48,489 nucleotides of DNA from Herminiimonas sp. (GTDB lineage Bacteria; Pseudomonadota; Gammaproteobacteria; Burkholderiales; Burkholderiaceae), in contig JACMQD010000379.1 in NCBI GenBank assembly GCA_014377155.1, positions 1-48,489 on the forward strand. Direction: 5' to 3'. Every line of letters begins with the position of its first letter. Position 1 is the stretch's first letter. This document shows, in pieces, positions 2,498 through 48,489 of this stretch. The notes beneath the pieces were generated by a model. The model was not told where the DNA came from. It did not search any database and saw nothing but the letters and a program-made list of their open reading frames with translations. The translations under genes and the position numbers were made by a program.

Positions 2498-3535
2498 ATG
2501 GATAATGCCGGATTTTCGGCGCGTATTGCCACGCCGGCCACGCTTAGTGCGGTTGAAATTAGTATTTGGGAAACACTCTGCGCAACCGTTCCTCATTTGT
2601 TTTCGCCATTCTTGAGTTTTCATTATGCCCATGCGGTAGCCGAATGCGGAGTCGATGTCAGGATTTGTATTCTGTCCAGAAATGGCGAAATTTGCGGATT
2701 TTTGCCGTATCAATTTGGCAGCCGGACCGCCGCATGGAGTGGTGTCGCTGAACCGGTTGGTGCTGGGATGACCGACTATTTCGGCTTGATCGGCGCAGCG
2801 GATTTAAGGATTTCGTCAAAGCAGCTTCTACATCACGCAAATATTCGCTATCTAGGTTTTTCCCACTTGGATGAACCTCAGCTAGGATATGGTTTGCGCG
2901 GTGAGCAACCACGCACAGGATTGCGCATTCGCCTGCCACCCGATGCAGGATGTCCCCTGGAAGCTGTGCTCAAATTAAAACAGAAATATCGCAAAGATAG
3001 CGAGCGTTGCGCAAAGCTGCTTACGGCGGAAAGAGGACCAACAGAATTCATCCTCGATGTTGAGGACCAAAGAAAAAGTGTGATCGATAACCTGATTGGT
3101 CAAAAACGGGCGCAGTACGAAAGGACCAATGTGCCGGATTCACTGGGTCATGCGTGGACACGTGCGCTTCTTTACAAGTTGAGTGATAGTCGATCCGCCA
3201 GTTGCCGCGGCATGCTCTCAAACTTGACGGCTGACGGCCAGTGGGTTGCTAGTCATTTTGGCATCGTCGGCAATGGCGTCTTACAGTACTGGTTCCCGGT
3301 ATATAACCAGGAATTTGCCAAATATGCGCCGGGGCGACTACTGCTTCATCAGATGATCGAATCGAGCCGGGAAGCGTCGATCCATTTGGTCGATTGCGGT
3401 GAAGGCGATACACCGAGCAAGAGGGTGCTGGCCAACGAGGAGCATCAATTCTTCCGTGGCGTATGGCACGACAATTCGCTGATGAGTTACGCTTCACGCG
3501 GCTTTCATAGCGTGAAGTGGCGACTCAAAAAATAG
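2498..3535 (+). CDS. GNAT/CelD-like acetyltransferase, copy 2
   Basis: Second 345-residue copy of the CelD-like acetyltransferase, about 93% identical to copy 1 by direct comparison. Changes are scattered (for example V23I, I77T, R200G, H226Y, R299C, D325N) with none that break the frame. The conserved KQKYRKDSERC and HSVKWRLKK segments are kept. Its leader is a copied deacetylase 3' end, so it may lack its own promoter and depend on read-through from copy 1. It converges on the GT2-deacetylase gene with a 64-nt gap in which no clear terminator is visible. The copies could acylate different sugars or simply raise dosage. Confidence 0.8.
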   Translation: MDNAGFSARIATPATLSAVEISIWETLCATVPHLFSPFLSFHYAHAVAECGVDVRICILSRNGEICGFLPYQFGSRTAAWSGVAEPVGAGMTDYFGLIGAADLRISSKQLLHHANIRYLGFSHLDEPQLGYGLRGEQPRTGLRIRLPPDAGCPLEAVLKLKQKYRKDSERCAKLLTAERGPTEFILDVEDQRKSVIDNLIGQKRAQYERTNVPDSLGHAWTRALLYKLSDSRSASCRGMLSNLTADGQWVASHFGIVGNGVLQYWFPVYNQEFAKYAPGRLLLHQMIESSREASIHLVDCGEGDTPSKRVLANEEHQFFRGVWHDNSLMSYASRGFHSVKWRLKK

Positions 3536-13756: not shown

Positions 13757-15328
13757 TCAGCGCTCCGCCGTCTGGCTGCGCGCCAGCACTGCTTCCAGCG
13801 GCGTCAGGTTATCGGTGAGAAAGCGGCGCAGTACGGCGCGCGCCTGTTGCGGATCTTCGGACAGCGGCGCATAGGCGAACACGGCGGCACTGTCATCGGC
13901 GCGATGCAGCAGCTTGCCTTTTGCCTGAAGCAGCTTACCCATGTAGTCGTTTTCCAGGAAAACGCCGTTGATCCAGTACCACTGCCACACCAGCATTGCG
14001 CCGCCGGCACCGCGCAACGCCGATTCGCGCACCACCAGCGTGCGCGAACCGATCGGTTCGGCGCGCGTGACTGTGGGGCCCTTAGCCCACAGCGGGTCTT
14101 TATCCCGCACCAGCCGATTTTCGGAATTGATCAGTCCGCCACCGCGCGGCCGGTTGCGGTAATACATCACCGACAGGCCTGCCTGGTCGGGTCCGCTGCC
14201 GAGAATGCGCGTCAGTGCCGTATTGGGTTTGGAAAAATGCGGTGTCCACTGCGCAAAGGGTGGCGCCGGCAGCCATGTCGGCGTGAAGCCCGCCAGGTCG
14301 GCATCCGCGCGGCCGGGGTTGCCTCGGCTGAGCTGGTCAGCCAGCACCGGCCAGATGCCGACGCATAGGACAACCGCTGCTGCCGCCACGAAAAAGCGGC
14401 CGTTTCCCGGTGGGTGGATGCGCTTGATGGTGGCGCCGTGCGGTGCGGGCACGACATCGATGTCATCTTGGCGCCAGAAGCCGCCGAGCCAGAACATCAG
14501 GAACATCACCAAACCGAAAAACACCCAGCCGTAAATGAGATGATCGACGCCGACGGCAAGCTCCATCCCGCTCAAGTGGCCGATCATTACAATCATGTAC
14601 GCGCGCGCACCATTGGCGACGATCGGCACGAGAATCGACAGCAGCACGAACAGCAGGCGCCGTCCGAGCGAACGGTAGGTGAGGTAGGCATACAGGCAGC
14701 CCAGCGTGAAAGAAGCGATCAGATACCGCACGCCACTGCAGGCTTCGACGACCGACCAGTTGCCGGTCGGGATCGAAAAATTCGGCCCTTCGCGTAGTAC
14801 CGGGATGCCGGTTGCCTGCAGTGCCCAGACCGTGAAATCCGCTGTCACGTCGATCAGAGGCGCGATGAAGATTTCACCGAACGGCACCGCCAGCAACATG
14901 AAGGCCAGTGGAAAGGCCATGGCTGCCGCCATGCGGCCACCGAGAATCACCAGTACCGCACACGGTAGCATCGCCACGAAGGCGTACTGCCGTACCACCT
15001 GCACATCGGCCAGTTCTGCCAGCAGCCAGCCGCTGCCGCACATCAGCAGTAGCACCAGGGCGCTCCAGAACGGCGCCGCCGGACGGGCTTGCAGCATGGC
15101 GCGCCGCTTCCAGATCAGCCAGGCACTGATCGGCAGGATAATGTAACCGTGGGCGAAAGTTTCTGAGCTGTTCCAGATTGCCACGATCGAATGGGCAGTG
15201 TCGAAATACAGCAGCAACAGCACCGTCAGTGCCGCTCCGAGCGCGATCATGGCAGCGGGTTTCTCGGCGCGGTCGGTCGCCGGCATCGGACGCCGGGTGG
15301 GCTTGGCTGCGTTAATAGGGGAGTGCAT
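13757..15328 (-). CDS. xrtA: Exosortase A fused to EpsI domain
   Basis: A 523-residue inner-membrane cysteine protease-transpeptidase that recognises PEP-CTERM tails. About eight transmembrane helices (residues 28-285) carry the predicted catalytic residues Cys197 (VVEACSGVRYL), Arg242 (VANGARAYM) and His263 (GVDHLIYGWVF). Residues of about 300-520 form an EpsI-type domain after a further anchor near 310-330. EpsI is separate in some genomes, and fusion is typical of the XrtA subtype. The start overlaps the stop of sugar transferase 1 by one base (TGATG). No PEP-CTERM substrate is encoded in this window, so substrates must be elsewhere. Confidence 0.95.
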   Translation of the reverse strand: MHSPINAAKPTRRPMPATDRAEKPAAMIALGAALTVLLLLYFDTAHSIVAIWNSSETFAHGYIILPISAWLIWKRRAMLQARPAAPFWSALVLLLMCGSGWLLAELADVQVVRQYAFVAMLPCAVLVILGGRMAAAMAFPLAFMLLAVPFGEIFIAPLIDVTADFTVWALQATGIPVLREGPNFSIPTGNWSVVEACSGVRYLIASFTLGCLYAYLTYRSLGRRLLFVLLSILVPIVANGARAYMIVMIGHLSGMELAVGVDHLIYGWVFFGLVMFLMFWLGGFWRQDDIDVVPAPHGATIKRIHPPGNGRFFVAAAAVVLCVGIWPVLADQLSRGNPGRADADLAGFTPTWLPAPPFAQWTPHFSKPNTALTRILGSGPDQAGLSVMYYRNRPRGGGLINSENRLVRDKDPLWAKGPTVTRAEPIGSRTLVVRESALRGAGGAMLVWQWYWINGVFLENDYMGKLLQAKGKLLHRADDSAAVFAYAPLSEDPQQARAVLRRFLTDNLTPLEAVLARSQTAER

Positions 15329-40305: not shown

Positions 40306-41658
40306 TCATTTGATGCCGTGCCGGCTCATCAGGTCATAGAGTGTCGGGCGGCTGATGCCGAGCATTTCGGCAGCGCGGGCAACATTGCCATCGGCCCTCG
40401 CCATGGCCTTGATGAGCGCGTTGTAACCCGCTTCGTCGCGCACCTGGCGCAGGTTGATCGGCTCTTGCGGTTCGGTCGAATCATCGAGTCCCAGATCATC
40501 GGGACCGATCTGCGGTCCGTCGGCCATGATGACAGCGCGCTTGACGCAGTTTTCCATTTCGCGCACGTTGCCCGGCCACTTGTAGTTTTCAATAGCGGTG
40601 AGTGCCGCCGCGCTGAAATTAAGCGATGACCGGCCTTCCTTGGCGCTGAAGGTATTCTTGAAATGATGTGCCAGCAGCGCCGCATCACCGGCACGATCGC
40701 GCAACGGCGGAATTGTCACCACGATTTCCGACAGGCGATAGTAGAGATCTTCGCGGAAGCGGCCGGCAAGCGCGAGTTCCTTGAGGTTCTGGTGGGTCGC
40801 ACAGACGATGCGCACGTCGACCGGAATCTCGACCCGGCCGCCGATGCGTTCCAGCACCCGCTCCTGCAGGAACCGTAGCAGCTTGGCTTGCAATGGCATC
40901 GGCAGGTCACCCACTTCGTCGAGGAAAAACGTGCCGCCGTCTGCCATCTCGATCTTGCCCAGGGTTTGCTTGACAGCGCCGGTGAAGGCACCTTTCTCGT
41001 AACCGAACAATTCGCTTTCGAGCAGGTTTTCAGGAATCGCCGCGCAGTTGATGGCAATGAAACGTTTCTGGTTGCGTGGGCTGAGCCGGTGTAGCGAACG
41101 CGCCACGACTTCCTTGCCGGTACCACTTTCGCCAAGCAGCATGACGCTAACCGATGCCGGCGCCACTTTCTCGATGTTACGGCAGACTTTCAGCATGCCC
41201 GGGTCGCGGCTGACAATGCCCGACATCGGCGAATCGGCCAGCGTCTGCATCAGGTTGCGGTTTTCCTGTTGTAGCGCATGCAGGTAGAACGCCCGTTGCA
41301 CGACCAACTGCAACATATCCTGGTCGAATGGTTTCTGGTGAAAGTCGTACGCGCCCATACCGATGGCCTTGACCGCGTTCGCGTGGTCCTGATTGCCGGT
41401 CAAAACGATAACTTTGGTGTTGGGGGCCATTGCCAGAATCTGCTGCAGGGTCGCGAGTCCCTCCGCGGAGCCATCCGGGTCCGGCGGCAAGCCGAGATCC
41501 ATGGTCACCACCGCCGGCTCGTGCCGCCGTACATGCGCGAGCGCGGCTTCGCGGTCGCCCGCGATCAGAACTTCGTAGGCATCGAAGCTCCAGCGCAGCT
41601 GCTTTTGCAGCCCGGGGTCGTCTTCGATGACGAGCAGTTTTTGTTTGTCCAGATTCAC
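40306..41658 (-). CDS. prsR: Sigma-54-dependent response regulator PrsR
   Basis: A 450-residue NtrC-type activator of the PEP-CTERM-box response regulator family. The receiver domain has Asp54 (VTMDLGLP). The AAA+ domain has Walker A GESGTGKE (176-183) and GAFTGA for sigma-54 contact. The C-terminal Fis-type helix-turn-helix reads [18 protein letters not shown]. It starts at GTG with AAAGGA close upstream, 12 nt after prsK. It should receive phosphate from PrsK and activate -24/-12 promoters of exosortase substrates and matrix genes. The candidate sigma-54 promoter at 45515-45531 is a plausible local target. Confidence 0.95.
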
Positions 41659-41670
41659 ACGATTCCTTTC

Positions 41671-43752
41671 TTACGATGTGGCATTGAGGACGCTGAAATC
41701 ATCGTCGTCATGCAAGGGCAGGGCAATCCGGAAGCGAGTGCCCTGGTCGGGCACGCTGGTGACCTCGAGCGTGCCGCCCAATTCGTGAATGTATTCCCGG
41801 CTTTCGAATACGCCGATGCCCATGCCTGCCAGTTTGGTCGATTCGAACGGTTTGAACAAGCGCTCACGGATGAATTCTTTGCTCATTCCCTGGCCATTGT
41901 CGGTCAGTTCGAGCACGACACTGCGGCCTTCCCGCACCAGGCGGATGGCGATCTCACCATCCCGCGGCGTGGCCTCCATCGCATTCTGAATCAGGTGGCC
42001 GATCACGCGCTCGAGTCGCGCCTGATTGGCATAGACGATCAAGCCACGCTCGACCACCTCGATGCTCGGTTGCGGCACGCCTGCCGCTTTGGAAGCGATG
42101 GCTCGGGTAGTGACTTGTTCGATCAAGATCGGCGCCGGCCGCTCCAGACTGGACCCGCGGCTGAATTTTTGCAGCAGCACTTTCATGCGATCGACCGAGT
42201 GACTGACCGTATCGAGCATATCTTGCTGAAATTCCGGGCTGTCACGATGTCGTTCAGCGTTCAGCACCAATAAAGATAATTGCGAAACCAGATTCTTCAG
42301 GTCATGCACGACGAAAGTCGACATACGCGTATAGGATTCGAACTGGCGCGCCACCATCAACGCATCCGATGCAGACTTTTGTACCAAGCTGCCGGCCGCC
42401 TGGTTGCCGGCGATCTTCAGCAAGTCGAGCACTTCCCAGTTGAGCTTGATCTTACTGCGTGATTCGGTCAGCACCACGAAGCCGATCAGATCGGCCTGCA
42501 AAACGAGCGGCACCACCAGCCAGGCCTCGGGCAGCGATTGCAACCACGACGGCAGCGTCAGCGAATCATAGCGTGCCGGATCGCGTACCAGTTCGGGCAG
42601 GTCGATCACCCAGTGCCGTGCCAGCATGAACTGGCTAAAGGCCGTGTCGCCTGCTTCCTGCATCGGCGTCAGTGCAATGTTCCAGCTGGTGGTGGCGCTG
42701 AAAACCTGGGCATCGTTTTTTATGAACAGGATGCCCGCGCGGCTTTCGACCAGATCGGCGATGGCGCGGATGGCACGCTGTTCCAGCCCGGGTCCCCGCT
42801 CCGAGAGGGTACGGGTAAATCGCAGCCATTCCTCCCGGTAGTCATAATTGTAGTTATAAAAATGCTTGCTGATGAAAACTTTCAAGCGGGAGCGGAAGGT
42901 GCCGGAAAATAATGTCCCCATCAGCAGCATGAGGGCGGCGAACAGAAACGCCGCCTGCATGATCGGCCCCCAGCTGCCACCAAAGTAGCGCAGGTAATAG
43001 CCCGCTGCCGCCATCAGCAGCAAGTAAGCTGCCGCCCCCGAAATTGTCGCCGAATGCATCAGGATTTGGCGTGATACGGCCAGGCGCGGCGTCCATTGTG
43101 GACTGCGCAAAATGGATACGACAATCAGGGGCACGATCAACGCATTGATCATGCCGCGCGCCACCCAGATTTCGATATTCAGCTTGCGAAAGAGTAACGC
43201 ATCGCTATACAAGTAAAAATCATAAGCAAACAGGCCGCCGATGCCCAGGCATGCGAACTTGATGCCCCAGCGGTCTTCGCTGGCAGAATTGCGGAACAGT
43301 TGTTCCACGAAAACCATCCCCATTACCGCACTGGCGATGCGACCCACGACCAGGATCAGTCCGCCGCCTTCGCTTTGGCGAAACGCAGGCTGGGCATAGC
43401 CATAAAGCGTTATCGCCAGTAAGAGAAGGTACAAGCTGAAGAATACAAAACGCGCGCTTCGCATCGGTGCAACGGCGGTGACGTCGTCTGAATCTGGCGC
43501 CACTAGCCTCAGCAAAAAAAATGTCAAGCTCGCATTGCGTGCAATTTCAAGCACATCGGCGGCAAACGAAAAAGGATGAGACGCGAAAACGCTGAGCACG
43601 ACGAATCCGGCCCATACAGCCGACATCAGGCAAGCGGTCATTAACAGGCGGCTGTACAACCTGGCGCGCCAGCGTGTTGCCAGCAGAATCGAGATCGCTG
43701 CGAACGCGAAAAGCGCCGCAGAATAGCTGACGACGGCAACACTGCCTAACAT
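41671..43752 (-). CDS. prsK: Membrane sensor histidine kinase PrsK
   Basis: A 693-residue sensor kinase of the PEP-CTERM system family. About eight to ten membrane helices (5-285) form the sensor. A GAF-like domain (about 310-455) and a HisKA-like segment with His483 (TFVVHDLKNLVSQL) follow. The ATPase domain has N-box IQNAMEATP, G1 TDNGQGMSKEF and G2 GMGIGVFESREYIHELGG. It lies 20 nt after the initiating transferase and 12 nt before prsR, forming a cognate pair. The signal it senses is unknown. Confidence 0.95.
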   Translation of the reverse strand: MLGSVAVVSYSAALFAFAAISILLATRWRARLYSRLLMTACLMSAVWAGFVVLSVFASHPFSFAADVLEIARNASLTFFLLRLVAPDSDDVTAVAPMRSARFVFFSLYLLLLAITLYGYAQPAFRQSEGGGLILVVGRIASAVMGMVFVEQLFRNSASEDRWGIKFACLGIGGLFAYDFYLYSDALLFRKLNIEIWVARGMINALIVPLIVVSILRSPQWTPRLAVSRQILMHSATISGAAAYLLLMAAAGYYLRYFGGSWGPIMQAAFLFAALMLLMGTLFSGTFRSRLKVFISKHFYNYNYDYREEWLRFTRTLSERGPGLEQRAIRAIADLVESRAGILFIKNDAQVFSATTSWNIALTPMQEAGDTAFSQFMLARHWVIDLPELVRDPARYDSLTLPSWLQSLPEAWLVVPLVLQADLIGFVVLTESRSKIKLNWEVLDLLKIAGNQAAGSLVQKSASDALMVARQFESYTRMSTFVVHDLKNLVSQLSLLVLNAERHRDSPEFQQDMLDTVSHSVDRMKVLLQKFSRGSSLERPAPILIEQVTTRAIASKAAGVPQPSIEVVERGLIVYANQARLERVIGHLIQNAMEATPRDGEIAIRLVREGRSVVLELTDNGQGMSKEFIRERLFKPFESTKLAGMGIGVFESREYIHELGGTLEVTSVPDQGTRFRIALPLHDDDDFSVLNATS

Positions 43753-43772: not shown

Positions 43773-45170
43773 CTAACGCGCGCCTTTGCCGAATAGCACT
43801 ACCTGAAGCGTGTCGATCAGGATCAGGGCATCCAGGAACAGGCTGTTGTTCTTAACGTAATACAGGTCATACTGAAGCTTCTGGATCGAATCATCGATCG
43901 AGGCACCGTAGGCATAACGGACTTGCGCCATGCCGGTGATGCCGGGCTTGATGCTATGACGGATATTGTAGAAAGGAACCTGCTCGACGAGCTGGTCGAC
44001 AAAGAACGGCCGTTCCGGACGTGGGCCGACGAAGCTCATGTCGCCGTTCATGACATTGATAATCTGGGGGATCTCGTCGATGCGGCATTTGCGGATGAAG
44101 CGTCCGACCATGGTGGTGCGCGGATCGTTCGAGGACGCCCACTGGGGCTTGCCGGCCTTTTCGGCATCGTTGCGCATACTGCGGAATTTCAGGACCATGA
44201 AACTTTTGCCATTTTTTCCTACCCGTTCCTGCTGGTAAAAAACTGGCCCACGGTCTTCGAGCACGATCAAAAGCGCGGTGATGACCATTATCGGAAACGC
44301 TACCATGTACAGCAGCGTGCTCATGACGATATCGAAAGTACGCTTGCCGAAAAGACGCACCAGGCTTTGGTCGAAACCGGTGCCGAAAACCAGCCAGCTC
44401 GGCTGCAATGAGTCGACCCGAATCTGGCACGCCTCGCGCTCGAAAAATGCCGTCGCATCGGTAACCTTGATACCCTTGAGCTTGCAGTCGAGCAATTCCC
44501 TGATCGGAAAAGCGCCGCCTCGGCGGTTCTCGACGGAGACGATAATTTCAGCCACACGATGTTTTTGCGCAGTTGACGTAAGCGAATTGTCAACCAGCGC
44601 GATCAGTGCCTGGGGGTCGATCAGGGTCGCGCCACCCGGGGCTGGTACATAGCCTACTATGCTGTATTTGTGTTCGAAACCTGCCACCTTGGCAAGGTCG
44701 CTGCATTCTTTGGCAATTGCGCCGGCGCCGAAAAACATGATGCGCGAACGCATGTACTTACTCTTCGATGTTTCGAAATAAATCGTCCGCACCAGCAAAA
44801 TCACAACGATGGTAAAAACGAATACCAGCCCCAGGATGCCGCGTCCGAAATACAGATCCGGAACCAAGTAAAACAATAGCGTCATGAATCCGAAACCGAG
44901 CAGACAGGCAGGCATTAGTCGCAGAAAAGTATTGCGAATGCCGTCGCGACCGCCATTCTGATACAAGCCCATCGCCGTCATGCTGAAACTCATCAATATC
45001 GCAAATGCCAGTGCCGACATGCTGTAGTTTTGCGCTTTTGCAGAAAAAAGGTATGCACTATCAAAACGGATAACAGCGCCGGAATAGGCCGCGCCCAGCA
45101 AGATGCAAAACTCCGCGCAAAATAGAAGCGATACTGATTTCGAAACGAAGTGATTGCCAATTCTAAACAT
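43773..45170 (-). CDS. Initiating sugar-phosphate transferase, PEP-CTERM system (EpsB type)
   Basis: A 465-residue polyisoprenyl-phosphate sugar transferase that loads the first sugar on undecaprenyl phosphate. N-terminal membrane helices and a nucleotide-binding-like domain (IMFFGAGAIAKECSDLA, VGYVPAPGG) precede the bacterial sugar transferase domain: KRTFDIVMSTLLYMVAFPIM, GPVFYQQERVGKNG, KFRSMRNDAE, RKCRIDEIPQIINVMNGDMS and VGPRPERPFFV. ATG 45170 is preferred, with GGAG 6 nt upstream; the frame reaches a TTG at 45185. It is first in the operon with prsK, prsR, ligase and decarboxylase. Confidence 0.94.
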   Translation of the reverse strand: MFRIGNHFVSKSVSLLFCAEFCILLGAAYSGAVIRFDSAYLFSAKAQNYSMSALAFAILMSFSMTAMGLYQNGGRDGIRNTFLRLMPACLLGFGFMTLLFYLVPDLYFGRGILGLVFVFTIVVILLVRTIYFETSKSKYMRSRIMFFGAGAIAKECSDLAKVAGFEHKYSIVGYVPAPGGATLIDPQALIALVDNSLTSTAQKHRVAEIIVSVENRRGGAFPIRELLDCKLKGIKVTDATAFFEREACQIRVDSLQPSWLVFGTGFDQSLVRLFGKRTFDIVMSTLLYMVAFPIMVITALLIVLEDRGPVFYQQERVGKNGKSFMVLKFRSMRNDAEKAGKPQWASSNDPRTTMVGRFIRKCRIDEIPQIINVMNGDMSFVGPRPERPFFVDQLVEQVPFYNIRHSIKPGITGMAQVRYAYGASIDDSIQKLQYDLYYVKNNSLFLDALILIDTLQVVLFGKGAR

Positions 45171-45402
45171 TTGATTCTCCGGCAAGGATTGCGCCCTTGA
45201 GCGCTGGCCTTTTTGTCAGTGCGCGAACAGACGGAAAAAGTTGCGCTCTTATGATCTTATTTACTAAAAGGTAACTTTCATTACAATAGGGAATTTTTCG
45301 GCATCACTCTGTTCGCTAAGGCACACTAGTATCGTACTAATTGAACTTAGTATTCGTATGTGGGAATTTTGCGGGGGTCATGCAATCAGAACAAGAGAAC
45401 AG

Positions 45403-45420
45403 TGTCGATTTTTATTACAC
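45403..45420. promoter_or_regulatory. Possible activator site (TGTCG-N7-TTACA) upstream of sigma-54 promoter
   Basis: The element reads TGTCGATTTTTATTACAC, or TGTAA-N7-CGACA on the other strand. It is about 95 bp upstream of the -24 element at 45516, a normal distance for a bound NtrC-type activator. It resembles motifs at 24943 and 32181. PrsR is the obvious candidate but binding is inferred. Confidence 0.4.
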
Positions 45421-45514
45421 TTGCCTCGGTTGTGATCCGCTACCGTCCATTTTAAAATGTTCCCAGTGTGCGTAAGCTCATAATTCTAAAGGCTATTTGT
45501 AAAATTGCAATGCT

Positions 45515-45531
45515 CTGGAACAAAGATTGCA
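45515..45531 (+). promoter_or_regulatory. Sigma-54 (-24/-12) promoter of the HPr-rel-A group
   Basis: The sequence CTGGAACAAAGATTGCA matches the consensus YTGGCACGNNNNTTGCW at all key positions: GG at 45517-45518, GC at 45529-45530, exactly 10 nt between. Transcription would begin near 45542, about 65 nt before the ATG at 45609. A TTGTAAAATTGCAA stretch lies immediately upstream. Confidence 0.65.
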
Positions 45532-45608
45532 TGAGTCAAACGCTAATCACTGGAAAGTTGCATTTCCGCCATAAATATTGAATTATCGCATTGTTGGAGT
45601 ACAAAGAT

Positions 45609-46184
45609 ATGGAAAAACAACAAGAACCACTTCGACCGTTGAATACGGACGAGCCTGGTACGACAACACAGGGTCATGGGTTACAAAATCCAGGCCGGCG
45701 GCGCTTCGGGCATGCCGGTCTTGGCACGTCCGGCGTATTGATGACGCTTGCCTGCAAGCCAGTTCTCGGCGGGGTGGTCTGTAAATCTCCGTCCGGTTTT
45801 TTGTCGGCCAATCAGAGCACGCACGGCGGGCAGGTTGCCATTTGCAGCGGTCGCCGCGCGCAATATTGGGCCGCAAATGAAAATTGGCCGATCGACAGGC
45901 AAACCAAATTTTCGCAGGTTTTCAGTTCTCCCAGCAGTGGTGCTTTTTCCCAACTTACGTTGGGTGACCTGATTGCGCGAAACGTATCGGATGTCGACGG
46001 ATTCGGCATGTGCTTGGTCGCAGCCTTGCTTAACTCGCGCATGGGATGGACGCCGTTCCTGCCGGAAGACAGGATCCGCGCGATGTATCTGGAGTGGCGG
46101 ACAAAAGGATATTTTTCCCCAACGGCTACGGTAAAGTGGACTGCCGTCGAAATCGTCAGCTACCTACAGTCCACGCAGGCCTGA
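45609..46184 (+). CDS. Uncharacterised small protein with Tat-like signal, HPr-rel-A locus
   Basis: A 191-residue protein with no domain I can name. ATG 45609 has GGAG 9 nt upstream. Residues 1-29 are polar. RRRFGHAGLG (about 30-39) then a short hydrophobic run (SGVLMTLA) resemble a twin-arginine signal. The mature part has VCKSPSGFLSANQSTHG and ICSGRRAQYW, with Cys49, Cys58, Cys79 and Cys135, and an aromatic-rich C-terminal half (LPEDRIRAMYLEWRTKGYFS). It is first after a sigma-54 promoter and precedes PqqD/HprK-like genes, so it may be their substrate. That role is inference. Confidence 0.75.
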   Translation: MEKQQEPLRPLNTDEPGTTTQGHGLQNPGRRRFGHAGLGTSGVLMTLACKPVLGGVVCKSPSGFLSANQSTHGGQVAICSGRRAQYWAANENWPIDRQTKFSQVFSSPSSGAFSQLTLGDLIARNVSDVDGFGMCLVAALLNSRMGWTPFLPEDRIRAMYLEWRTKGYFSPTATVKWTAVEIVSYLQSTQA

Positions 46185-46211
46185 CCGTCGACGTTACTGT
46201 GGGCTTCGCGC

Positions 46212-46499
46212 ATGCATGATTGCTTCTGGATGCTTGCCGGCGAGCGCGCACTGCTGTCGCGCTGCTGGGCCGGCGAACATGTGGTGTACCATCCCGCAGC
46301 AGGTGACACTCATCTGCTAGGGGACGCGGCAGTGGACATGTTGGCATTGCTCGATGGGCAAGCACTCGATAGCGAGGCGTTATCGGATGCGATGCGGCGC
46401 TACTGTACTGCAGACGAATCGCGGGACGTGCTTACTCTCACCAATGCCATGCTGGCCGACCTGGAGGCGCTTGGGCTTATCGAACGAACTGCGCTTTGA
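46212..46499 (+). CDS. PqqD-like protein, HPr-rel-A system
   Basis: A 95-residue PqqD-fold protein (RiPP recognition element type). It shows the family pattern: CFWMLAGERALLSRCWAGEH, VVYHPAAGDTHLLGDAAVDML and a helical C-terminus ending LADLEALGLIERT. PqqD folds bind leader peptides and deliver them to modifying enzymes. Here it would hand a peptide or protein to the HprK-like kinase. Its stop overlaps the TTG start of the kinase gene. The start at ATG 46212 lies 27 nt after the previous gene. Confidence 0.85.
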   Translation: MHDCFWMLAGERALLSRCWAGEHVVYHPAAGDTHLLGDAAVDMLALLDGQALDSEALSDAMRRYCTADESRDVLTLTNAMLADLEALGLIERTAL

Positions 46500-47416
46500 A
46501 CATTTCAGATCTCTCCCGTTCGGCCTTGCGAGCGCGACTGTCGGGCGACGGCCTGCGTTTTCGTACCGGCGACTTCACCATCCGGCTTCAGACGCGGTTG
46601 CGGCGTGTAATCGACGGCATCGCTTTGCTGTACGCGGATTTTCCGCTGGTCGATGACACCGGTTTCGCCGATTTCCATGTCACGCTCGACAGCCCTTTCA
46701 ATTTGCATCGCCTTTTTCGCCCCCAAGTGCGCTTCATGCTGGATGGCCGCCCGCCATTTCAGCCGTTGCCGATCGACCAGGCATTTCCGATGTTCGAATG
46801 GGGCTTGAACTGGTGTGTCTCGTCGCATGCCAACAGTTATGTGATTATCCACGCCGCCGTTATTGAAAAGGCAGGGCGTGCCGCGATCCTGCCAGCGCCG
46901 CCCGGCTCGGGAAAAAGTACCTTGTGCGCCGCCTTGGTCGGTCGTGGGTGGCGCCTGTTGTCGGATGAACTGACGTTGATCCGCGTCAGTGACAGCGCAA
47001 TCGTGCCGTTGCCGCGCCCGATCAGTCTGAAGAATGGGTCGATCGATGTCATCCTCGGATGGCAAGCCGATGCGGTAGCCAGTCGGCGTGTCTTCGACAC
47101 GATGAAGGGTACGGTAGCGCATGTCAAACCACCGGCCGACAGTGTGGCACGCGCGAGTGAAACCTGCCCCGTCGGCTGGATCATTTTTCCAAAATACGAA
47201 GCCGGTGCTGCGACCTGTCTGGCGCCTTTGTCAAAGTCGCGCGCGTTCGTGCGCGTAGCTGACAATGCGTTCAATTACAGCACGCTCGGTGCCAGCGCAT
47301 TCGACACGCTGGCCAATGCGGTCGACTCCGCCAGTTGCTTCGATTTTTCCTATTCCGTTCTGGACGAAGCGATTGCTGCATTCGATGCGCTGGCGGCGCA
47401 ATCCGAGCCGGCATGA
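46496..47416 (+). CDS. HprK-related kinase A
   Basis: A 306-residue protein related to the P-loop kinase domain of HPr kinase/phosphorylase but outside the PTS. It starts at TTG, overlapping the pqqD-like stop (TTGA). A unique N-terminal part (1-105) is followed by VIIHAAVIEKAGRAAILPAP, the P-loop PPGSGKST (135-142) and Walker B-like LLSDELTLIR (Asp157). Later parts (FPKYEAGAATCLAPL, NAFNYSTLGASAF) are typical of this subgroup. The target Ser/Thr is unknown; neighbours suggest the 45609 product or another secreted peptide. The next gene overlaps it (ATGA). Confidence 0.88.
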   Translation: MNISDLSRSALRARLSGDGLRFRTGDFTIRLQTRLRRVIDGIALLYADFPLVDDTGFADFHVTLDSPFNLHRLFRPQVRFMLDGRPPFQPLPIDQAFPMFEWGLNWCVSSHANSYVIIHAAVIEKAGRAAILPAPPGSGKSTLCAALVGRGWRLLSDELTLIRVSDSAIVPLPRPISLKNGSIDVILGWQADAVASRRVFDTMKGTVAHVKPPADSVARASETCPVGWIIFPKYEAGAATCLAPLSKSRAFVRVADNAFNYSTLGASAFDTLANAVDSASCFDFSYSVLDEAIAAFDALAAQSEPA

Positions 47417-48489
47417 AAGCGCTGCCGTTGCTGATACAAATGCTGCGCGCGCCCCACGCAATGCGTGCGCTCGATTTGAGCCAGTGGGATCTGCTGGTGC
47501 GGCAGGCGCGCCGCGCTAATCTGCTCGCCAGCTTGCACGGGATGCTGCAAGCGCATGGCTTGCTCGATGATGTTCCGCCAGCGGCGCTGAAGCACCTCGC
47601 GTGGTCGCGTTGCGTGTCAGACAAACATATCGAGGCCGTGCGCTGGGAAGTACGACAGATCCGCGCCGCGCTGCGCGCCACGCACGTCCCGGTCATTCTG
47701 CTCAAGGGTGCGGCATATGTGATGGCAGACCTGCCGGCGGCGCAGGGACGGCTGTTTTCGGATGTCGACATCATTGTTCCCAAAGCGCGACTCGATGAAG
47801 TCGAAGCAGCGCTGATGCTGGGTGGCTGGGTGGCTACCCAGCATGACGCATACGATCAGCGCTATTACCGCCAGTGGATGCACGAACTGCCGCCGATGCA
47901 GCACATGCGCCGCATGTCGGTGATCGACGTCCATCATGCAATTCTGCCGGAAACCGCACGCGTGCACCCGTCGCCCGACAAGCTCCGTGCAGCGTCGATG
48001 GCCGTGCCTGGCTGCGACGACTTGCGCGTTTTCTGTCCGGCGGACATGGTGCTGCATAGCGCAGTGCATCTGTTTCATGATGGCGAACTTGAACAAGGTC
48101 TGCGCGACCTGGTCGATTTGCATCGGCTGTTTGCCCATTTTGGCGCCGAGCCGTCTTTCTGGACGGTGCTGCCGGCACGCGCAGCCGAACTCGGTTTGCT
48201 ACGACCGCTGTTCTATGCGATGCGTTATGCCAACGCGATGCTGGCAACGCCGATTCCTGCGTCGGCCTTGCTAGCCGCGCGTGCCGACGCGCCGAATGCA
48301 GCGCTGTTGGTGGTCATGGATCAGCTCTTTCTGCGAGCTCTATTGCCCGCGCATGCCAGTTGTGCCGATGTCTTGTCGGGGACTGCGCGCGGCATGCTGT
48401 ACATCCGCGCGAACTGGCTCAGGATGCCGCCCCTGCTGTTGGCGCGTCATCTTTTTCACAAGGCGTTCTTATCGCCCAAGAATGTGCCG
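47413..48489 (+). CDS. Nucleotidyltransferase family protein, 3' end outside window
   Basis: The frame is open from ATG 47413 through the last base (359 codons, no stop). It overlaps the HprK-like stop by ATGA. The core has PVILLKGAAYVMADLP followed by GRLFSDVDIIVPKARLDEVE, the DxD nucleotidyltransferase motif of the uncharacterised NTP_transf_5 group that often accompanies HPr-rel-A genes. VIDVHHAIL, MVLHSAVHLFHDGEL and LRDLVDLHRLF follow, as in this family. It probably transfers a nucleotide, or cooperates in protein modification with the kinase; the substrate is unknown. Confidence 0.88.
   Translation, partial: MKALPLLIQMLRAPHAMRALDLSQWDLLVRQARRANLLASLHGMLQAHGLLDDVPPAALKHLAWSRCVSDKHIEAVRWEVRQIRAALRATHVPVILLKGAAYVMADLPAAQGRLFSDVDIIVPKARLDEVEAALMLGGWVATQHDAYDQRYYRQWMHELPPMQHMRRMSVIDVHHAILPETARVHPSPDKLRAASMAVPGCDDLRVFCPADMVLHSAVHLFHDGELEQGLRDLVDLHRLFAHFGAEPSFWTVLPARAAELGLLRPLFYAMRYANAMLATPIPASALLAARADAPNAALLVVMDQLFLRALLPAHASCADVLSGTARGMLYIRANWLRMPPLLLARHLFHKAFLSPKNVP

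Follow-up and report, generated by a model that had tools for sequence, protein, structure and literature searches.

The last part of a 48,489-nucleotide (nt) stretch of Herminiimonas sp. DNA (contig JACMQD010000379.1), here called the window, holds four plus-strand genes, in which a small protein with a leader of the twin-arginine translocation (Tat) kind is followed by a PqqD-like protein, an HprK-like kinase and a nucleotidyltransferase (NTase). These genes and the regulatory elements ahead of them are:

45403..45419, + strand: PEP-CTERM box TGTCGATTTTTATTACA (TGTCG-N7-TTACA), predicted PrsR site
45516..45531, + strand: sigma-54 -24/-12 promoter TGGAACAAAGATTGCA, score 19.5 of 21.5, equalled by 0.5% of 200 shuffles
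45609..46184, + strand: candidate substrate of 191 amino acids (aa) with an RR-hydrophobic N-terminus
46212..46499, + strand: PqqD-family protein (PqqD_rel_X, TIGR04353), candidate leader-binding element, 50.8 bits against a cut-off of 35
46496..47416, + strand: HprK-related kinase A (HprK_rel_A, TIGR04352) with a TTG start, 384.8 bits against a cut-off of 200
47413..48489, + strand: NTP_transf_5 nucleotidyltransferase (PF14907), 3' end beyond the window, 190.7 bits against a gathering score of 31.2

The PqqD stop and the kinase start overlap by 4 nt (46496-46499), as do the kinase stop and the NTase start (47413-47416). An earlier reading of the window (the original prediction) had proposed a four-gene operon with 4-nt overlaps among its last three genes, preceded by a -24/-12 promoter and a TGTCG-N7-TTACA element; coordinates and family assignments agree with the former, and both elements of the latter were located. 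An NTP_transf_5-type gene next to the kinase is typical of the HPr-rel-A system, and PqqD domains are leader-binding elements in other systems. The window PqqD-like protein scores 21.3 bits with Pfam PqqD, under the 23.4 cut-off. We consider it fairly probable that an exported protein of the exosortase A regulon undergoes leader-guided serine phosphorylation by the enzymes of this operon, probably extended by the NTase.

The product of the gene at 45609, hereafter the leader protein, accompanies the kinase across genomes. Loci were fetched via the kinase, not via the 45609 gene, and the best 80 of at least 559 stretches encoding a relative were collected. With a hidden Markov model built from the window protein and 33 of a set of 80 proteins, exactly one match per locus was found in 78 of the 80, on the kinase strand and upstream of PqqD and the kinase. 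In one of the two misses (L009) the kinase open reading frame (ORF) starts at base 117 of the contig; the other (L003) is taken up below. The window NTase was matched after the kinase in all 80 loci, and the window PqqD went unmatched in four (L003, L009, L034 and L080).

A second, separately drawn sample comprised 369 genomes of the class of genome G008. The kinase was matched at E <= 0.001 in 181 of these, and the 41 over the family cut-off were used (G008 among them is also locus L012). A model made from an alignment of 45 leader proteins matched next to the kinase in 33 of the 41; the remaining 8 and 3 of the 33 cassettes were read directly, and the 30 best loci were re-read. An RR-leader gene precedes PqqD and the kinase in 40 of the 41 cassettes, which divide into 31 of the GYWKN type, eight with other bodies, one with a minimal precursor (L162) and one cut by a contig end (L115). 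Thus two of the three gaps across both samples (L009 and L115) are contig ends. In two further genome groups the kinase was over cut-off in 3 of 218 and 7 of 210 genomes, and all ten have a leader gene, two of them (L066, L061) already seen; in one of the ten (L157/L164) it lies downstream of the NTase, not upstream. These counts favour the original suggestion that the leader protein is a partner, or candidate substrate, of the enzymes.

The same prediction named wide occurrence of the leader-protein family without the cassette as the outcome that would speak against it. No such spread was found in the 369 genomes. Outside over-cut-off cassettes, the family model matched the GYWKN part alone in four genomes (G055, G120, G139, G255), with no kinase match in the fetched stretch. 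In G141, G224, G325 and at one place in G400 it matched short leader peptides that have another HprK-like kinase as neighbour. Short leader peptides with no kinase in the fetched stretch occur in G358 and at a second place in G400. One 75-aa frame was matched and not read (G326 C464, E 7e-5), and matches weaker than E 1e-4 occur in G047, G397 and G134 C38. The cassette-bearing genome G336 has one extra copy of the leader family outside its cassette (L129, 3405-4601, - strand), a protein with a leader and SGxxSGN and no kinase match in the fetched stretch; it is possibly modified in trans by the cassette elsewhere in that genome. A GYWKN domain without leader, Ser motif or nearby kinase was seen in L125 (2726-4153), L126 (35-625), L127 (1443-2315) and L128 (3920-5812), and no Pfam model covers the GYWKN domain in L125, L127 and L128.

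In the window the leader protein consists of an N-terminal tail, the RR pair at 30-31, a hydrophobic leader with TL at 46-47, Cys58, Ser62 and Ser66, and a GYWKN-type helical domain over about 81-190. In an alignment of 79 GYWKN-type proteins (78 loci and the window), the RR pair is present in 78, the exception being truncated, the Cys likewise in 78, and the two Ser spaced four residues apart (Ser62 and Ser66 in the window) in all 79. Invariance across 45 diverse members is limited to five columns (R, R, S, S and one Asn). Within the hydrophobic stretch, a Thr and a Ser are at least 90% conserved in the same 45, which would be unusual for a plain signal peptide. The RR pair and the leader agree with the features of Tat substrates, namely RR-x-[FLIMA], an uncharged hydrophobic stretch and a small residue ahead of the cleavage point. 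A pattern of RR, uncharged stretch and small residue before a plausible cleavage site, composed after the family had been seen, is found in 67 of the 78 substrates and in 10 of the 1339 remaining ORFs of these loci. In 32 sequences fetched later by the model, and so not independent of it (L081 is L012 again), RR occurs in 32 and C-x1-5-S-x3-S in 29; within the last 62 residues the latter occurs in 1 of 32. AlphaFold predicts a confident six-helix domain over about 81-190 of the window protein, with no fold match in the PDB, and gives low confidence to the N-terminus, including the leader and Ser motif; this predicted profile is consistent with a flexible tail accessible to enzymes.

The conserved unit was taken at one point to be the whole 190-aa family. 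This was rejected, as the family model fails to match the bodies of eight of the 41 sampled cassettes, and the constant part is therefore the leader with the Ser motif, not the GYWKN domain. The other-body partners (L111, L112, L113, L114, L116, L117, L118, L130) have similar RR leaders and share the RR...TL...A type. Two kinds of Ser motif occur: C...S-x3-S following the leader and, close to the C-terminus, C-x-[TA]-S. A C-terminal or nearly C-terminal [CAG]-x-[TAN]-S-hydrophobic was found in seven of the eight other-body partners and in L159, L160, L161 and L162 (11 of 12 in total), a pattern written post hoc on 12 partners picked by eye and so a description, not a test; L152, L153, L156, L158 and L164 stand outside this count. 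The smallest partner, L162, is a 74-aa precursor with 12 residues past the presumed leader, ending CNASLI, and in L152 and L153 the leader is followed by a short tail containing SGNLSG. Since one kinase family is thus joined to many bodies and one kind of leader, the leader is probably the part recognised by the enzymes.

Related kinases outside the curated family adjoin short leader peptides in L119, L120, L122, L123, L136, L138, L142 and L144. Among 20 further regions fetched for weaker kinase matches, mostly the strongest of these, the leader pattern gave a convincing short peptide encoded on the same strand as the kinase in five (L136, L138, L142, L144 and L147, in the last about 2 kb away), so that the short-peptide class is a lead, not a rule. 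In L136 (44.4 bits) and L138 (51.2 bits; cut-off 23.4) the kinase begins with a fused PqqD domain, and in both the next gene is NTP_transf_5. The original prediction of leader-guided modification gains from these two fusions beside leader peptides and from the persistence of leader and Ser motif while the body is exchanged; together they suggest that such guidance takes place.

Several side observations concern the short peptides. The fusions (L136, 4138-5784, - strand; L138, 456-3065, - strand) are a separate uncurated relative near short RR-leader peptides. In L119 (3778-5885, - strand) three tandem leader peptides (66, 78 and 87 aa) have GS right after the presumed cleavage site, and the HprK-like kinase there is under all NCBIfam cut-offs. 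The short leader peptide of L122 (4446-4709, + strand) adjoins an HprK-like kinase, with a perfect PEP-CTERM box and a -24/-12 site upstream at a gap of 63. Similar short RR-leader peptides with no kinase match in the fetched stretch occur in L121 (3640-4516, + strand) and L124 (5333-5569, - strand).

The tandem peptides of L119, the short leader peptides beside related kinases in general and the minimal precursors L152, L153 and L162 could also be taken to mean that the system makes antimicrobial or signalling peptides, the leader protein being the precursor of a secreted bioactive peptide and GYWKN an immunity or delivery element. We regard this as very improbable: most HprK_rel_A partners seen have about 180-300 aa, a folded domain is predicted for the window's member, and no transporter or protease was noticed beside the cassette, though no systematic search was made for either.

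Turning to the enzymes, the predicted structure of the window kinase shows an HprK fold over residues 113-306, and its whole length aligns with PEPCK. The P-loop is present in 81 of 81 kinase ORFs and SDE in 80 of 81; among the NTase ORFs, examined by pattern, KG is found in 72 of 81. Both the kinase and the adjoining PqqD are over the curated cut-offs of the HPr-rel-A system (NCBIfam TIGR04352, TIGR04353), whereas the window leader protein is covered by no NCBIfam or Pfam model. The kinase has the same predicted C-terminal fold as HPr kinase/phosphorylase (PDB 1ko7, 1kkl); however, it reaches only 14.1 bits with Pfam Hpr_kinase_C (cut-off 33.3), does not reach TIGR00679 at E <= 0.001, and has no HPr gene in its operon.

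A close chemical parallel lies in lasso peptides, which are phosphorylated or phosphoglycosylated via HPr-kinase homologs such as PsmK and the nucleotidyltransferase PsmN, the latter reportedly adding a nucleotide- or sugar-derived group to the phosphate in pseudomycoidin (PMC9266682, PMC8498205). The two systems would share an HPr-kinase homolog with a nucleotidyltransferase, a leader-binding protein and a Ser target, the likeness of the enzymes being one of family and fold. They differ in that the operon lacks a lasso cyclase (C) and a leader protease (B2), on which ground membership of a lasso peptide cluster was ruled out, and in that the candidate target here is a protein with a Tat-like leader, which in the main type carries its Ser past the leader and whose regulation is predicted to be by PrsR and sigma-54. 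At a distance of 33 kb there is an Asn-synthase-like gene, identified as the XrtA amidotransferase (TIGR03108, 1046.8 bits); its score for lasso cyclase is 246.6, with a cut-off of 525.

The HprK-type fold could also point to phosphorylation only, or to a reversible phosphorylation as by HPr kinase/phosphorylase, of a protein that stays in the cell and uses the RR stretch as a docking tag, with no export. The failure of curated Tat models for nearly all members fits this, and so does the low AlphaFold confidence for the leader and Ser region, as in a flexible docking tail. Such an intracellular role is nevertheless decidedly unlikely, since 67 of the 78 members combine RR with an uncharged stretch and a small cleavage-site residue, other GYWKN proteins (290-630 aa; L125, L127, L128) have secretory-looking N-termini by eye, and the regulon is that of exported proteins.

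This regulon is indicated by the upstream region and by the neighbouring genes of the window, in which exopolysaccharide (EPS) genes accompany exosortase A:

40306..41658, - strand: PrsR, sigma-54 response regulator (TIGR02915) and predicted activator, 750.7 bits against a cut-off of 502.6
41671..43752, - strand: PrsK histidine kinase (TIGR02916), 822.8 bits against a cut-off of 300
43773..45185, - strand: EpsB2-type glycosyltransferase (TIGR03013), divergent neighbour, 552.1 bits against a cut-off of 393.35
13757..15328, - strand: exosortase A (XrtA, TIGR03109), same locus, 347.2 bits against a cut-off of 208

The divergent operon had been predicted to encode PrsR, and TIGR02915 over its cut-off bears this out, with EpsB2 and PrsK likewise over theirs. 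In Haft 2006 (PMC1569441, section 7), a motif 1/motif 2 arrangement upstream of PEP-CTERM genes is assigned to PrsR and sigma-54. There, motif 1 has 17 nt and ends TTTACA, a spacer of 32-92 nt leads to a 17-nt motif 2, and the spacing from box to promoter is 62.8 (standard deviation, SD, 10.6). Measured against that description, the window has the same two-part promoter, a 17-nt box and then a -24(GG)/-12(GC) site; the box answers to motif 1 and is one base off TTTACA, A replacing the first T. The operon differs in that its genes encode no PEP-CTERM protein and, on the same source, in a box-promoter spacing about 24 nt longer on average. In the window 96 nt separate the end of the box from TGG; the 32-92 nt of the paper are counted to the 17-nt motif 2, an end point that may differ from TGG. 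TGTCGATTTTTATTACA is the sole TGTC-N8-TTACA match in the whole window.

The arrangement recurs in the relatives. The 78 loci and the window gave 79 upstream regions, of which three were too short for the promoter test; in 67 of the other 76 the best -24/-12 score ahead of the leader gene reached p <= 0.05 relative to shuffled sequence. In 72 regions with a good -24/-12 site, an unsupervised count gave TGTCG-N7-TTACA as the commonest spaced word pair, the dyad GTCG-N7-TTAC occurs in 65, and TGTC-N7-TTTA in 47 of the 72. Strict boxes number 116 in 1.58 Mb of loci, where base composition leads one to expect 1.5, and 58 of them precede leader genes, while 39 of the other 58 precede genes with a terminal PEP-CTERM motif, some genes being two-boxed; since the fetched loci share descent, box and promoter counts are not independent events. 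In three of the eight other-body cassettes, 64-81 nt separate a perfect box from the promoter.

Whole genomes point the same way. PrsR was over cut-off in 38 of 40 locus genomes taken from the 80, the exceptions being those of L003 and L023. In the 369-genome sample it was present in 40 of 41 kinase genomes and in 66 of 328 others (Fisher p = 1.3e-23), and XrtA, whose co-occurrence with the cassette the original prediction had proposed to survey, in 35 of 41 and 38 of 328 (p = 1.4e-22). Given these counts, genomes with PrsR carry the kinase cassette as an optional module. Linkage to PrsK/PrsR/EpsB2 was considered as the chief argument for an exosortase connection and set aside, because it holds within 10 kb in only 11 of 80 loci at the score limits used; the conserved box and the whole-genome co-occurrence are better evidence. 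Control by sigma-54 and PrsR, as originally predicted, is supported by the same two lines together with the conserved promoter, and remains a prediction from sequence.

Membership of this regulon can be read in another way. The leader protein might be a co-expressed scaffold or sensor, with the enzymes modifying some other target, e.g. PEP-CTERM proteins or an exopolysaccharide carrier of the regulon. The operon's place among boxes that so often precede PEP-CTERM genes agrees with this, and XrtA/EPS genes are no more than 10 kb away from 49 of the 80 cassettes. The XrtA count of 38 in 328 kinase-lacking genomes has also been placed on this side, and it means that the kinase is dispensable for exosortase. 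We think such a target unlikely, given that the leader gene is near-obligatory, that the body is swapped or cut to 12 residues with the leader and usually the Ser motif kept, and that a PqqD, a leader-binding element elsewhere, is in the cassette or fused to the kinase.

In our favoured reading, leader-guided modification of an exported protein, the four genes form one operon, which would be switched by PrsR and sigma-54 and would encode the protein together with its cytoplasmic modifying enzymes. The PqqD-like protein would bind the Tat-like RR-hydrophobic leader and bring the leader protein to the HprK-type kinase, which would phosphorylate a conserved Ser just past the leader, Ser62 and/or Ser66. 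NTP_transf_5 may then put a nucleotide- or sugar-derived group on the phosphate, by analogy with PsmN. Lastly, the leader would take the folded protein out via Tat and be cleaved off. The evidence suggests that the conserved Ser is modified before the protein leaves the cell. The genomic side of this case is strong, and from it we infer the chemistry and the export.

A number of observations weigh against this reading. Conservation is poor over the roughly 30 residues ahead of RR, in contrast to the classic leader of a ribosomally synthesised and post-translationally modified peptide, and in L158 the leader is accompanied by neither kind of Ser motif in clear form. By fold the kinase is best matched by PEPCK and not by HprK, and no more than 59 of 81 NTase ORFs agree with the DxD pattern. 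Tat export is deduced from the motif: among 45 members searched at E <= 1, TIGR01409 matched one and PF10518 two, and neither matched the window protein at that limit. L003 (10001) has an HprK_rel_A kinase and NTase with no PqqD or leader gene in front; in that genome, which lacks PrsR over cut-off, a leader-gene fragment and PqqD lie on another contig. In nine of the 76 testable regions the promoter score does not reach p <= 0.05, plainly so in five (L015, L018, L019, L023, L052) and with p between 0.065 and 0.115 in the other four. PrsR is present in the genomes of L015, L018, L019 and L052 despite the missing promoter; the L023 genome lacks both. Box-to-promoter spacing in the relatives is 86.8 (SD 10.0, n=57), as against 62.8 in the 2006 paper. 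Two of the eight other-body cassettes have neither box nor promoter, and three have an odd box distance: in L112, L114 and L118 the -24/-12 site ahead of the leader gene and a near-perfect box (8-9 of 10) are about 130 nt apart instead of 65-95 nt.

The HPr-rel-A enzyme families are already known by name in NCBIfam, and PrsR with its box is already known for PEP-CTERM genes. No paper on the HprK-related kinase or HPr-rel-A by name was found in open-licence full texts, nor any relevant paper on the combination of the leader gene with the cassette enzymes. As far as these searches go, the dedicated leader protein, the invariant serines, the body exchange, the fusions and the placement in the PrsR regulon are new. 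A named but unexplained enzyme set thereby gains a dedicated partner, a target prediction (two invariant serines) and a regulator. If the favoured reading is true, an export signal doubles as a modification leader, and leader-guided chemistry extends from peptides to folded exported proteins. A broader proposal, which we hold to be possible and rather doubtful, is a general and previously unrecognised leader-guided class in which PqqD reads a Tat-type signal, an HprK-type kinase and an NTP_transf_5 enzyme place a phosphate-linked nucleotide or sugar on a passenger Ser, and the passenger, anything from a 12-residue tail to a folded domain, is exported by Tat; in the XrtA regulon that group would tie the product to the exopolysaccharide matrix.

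Elsewhere in the window, two adjacent near-identical genes (1231-2268 and 2498-3535, + strand) agree at 323 of 346 translated positions, stop included, and at 968 of 1038 bases, and the pair resembles the outcome of a tandem duplication.

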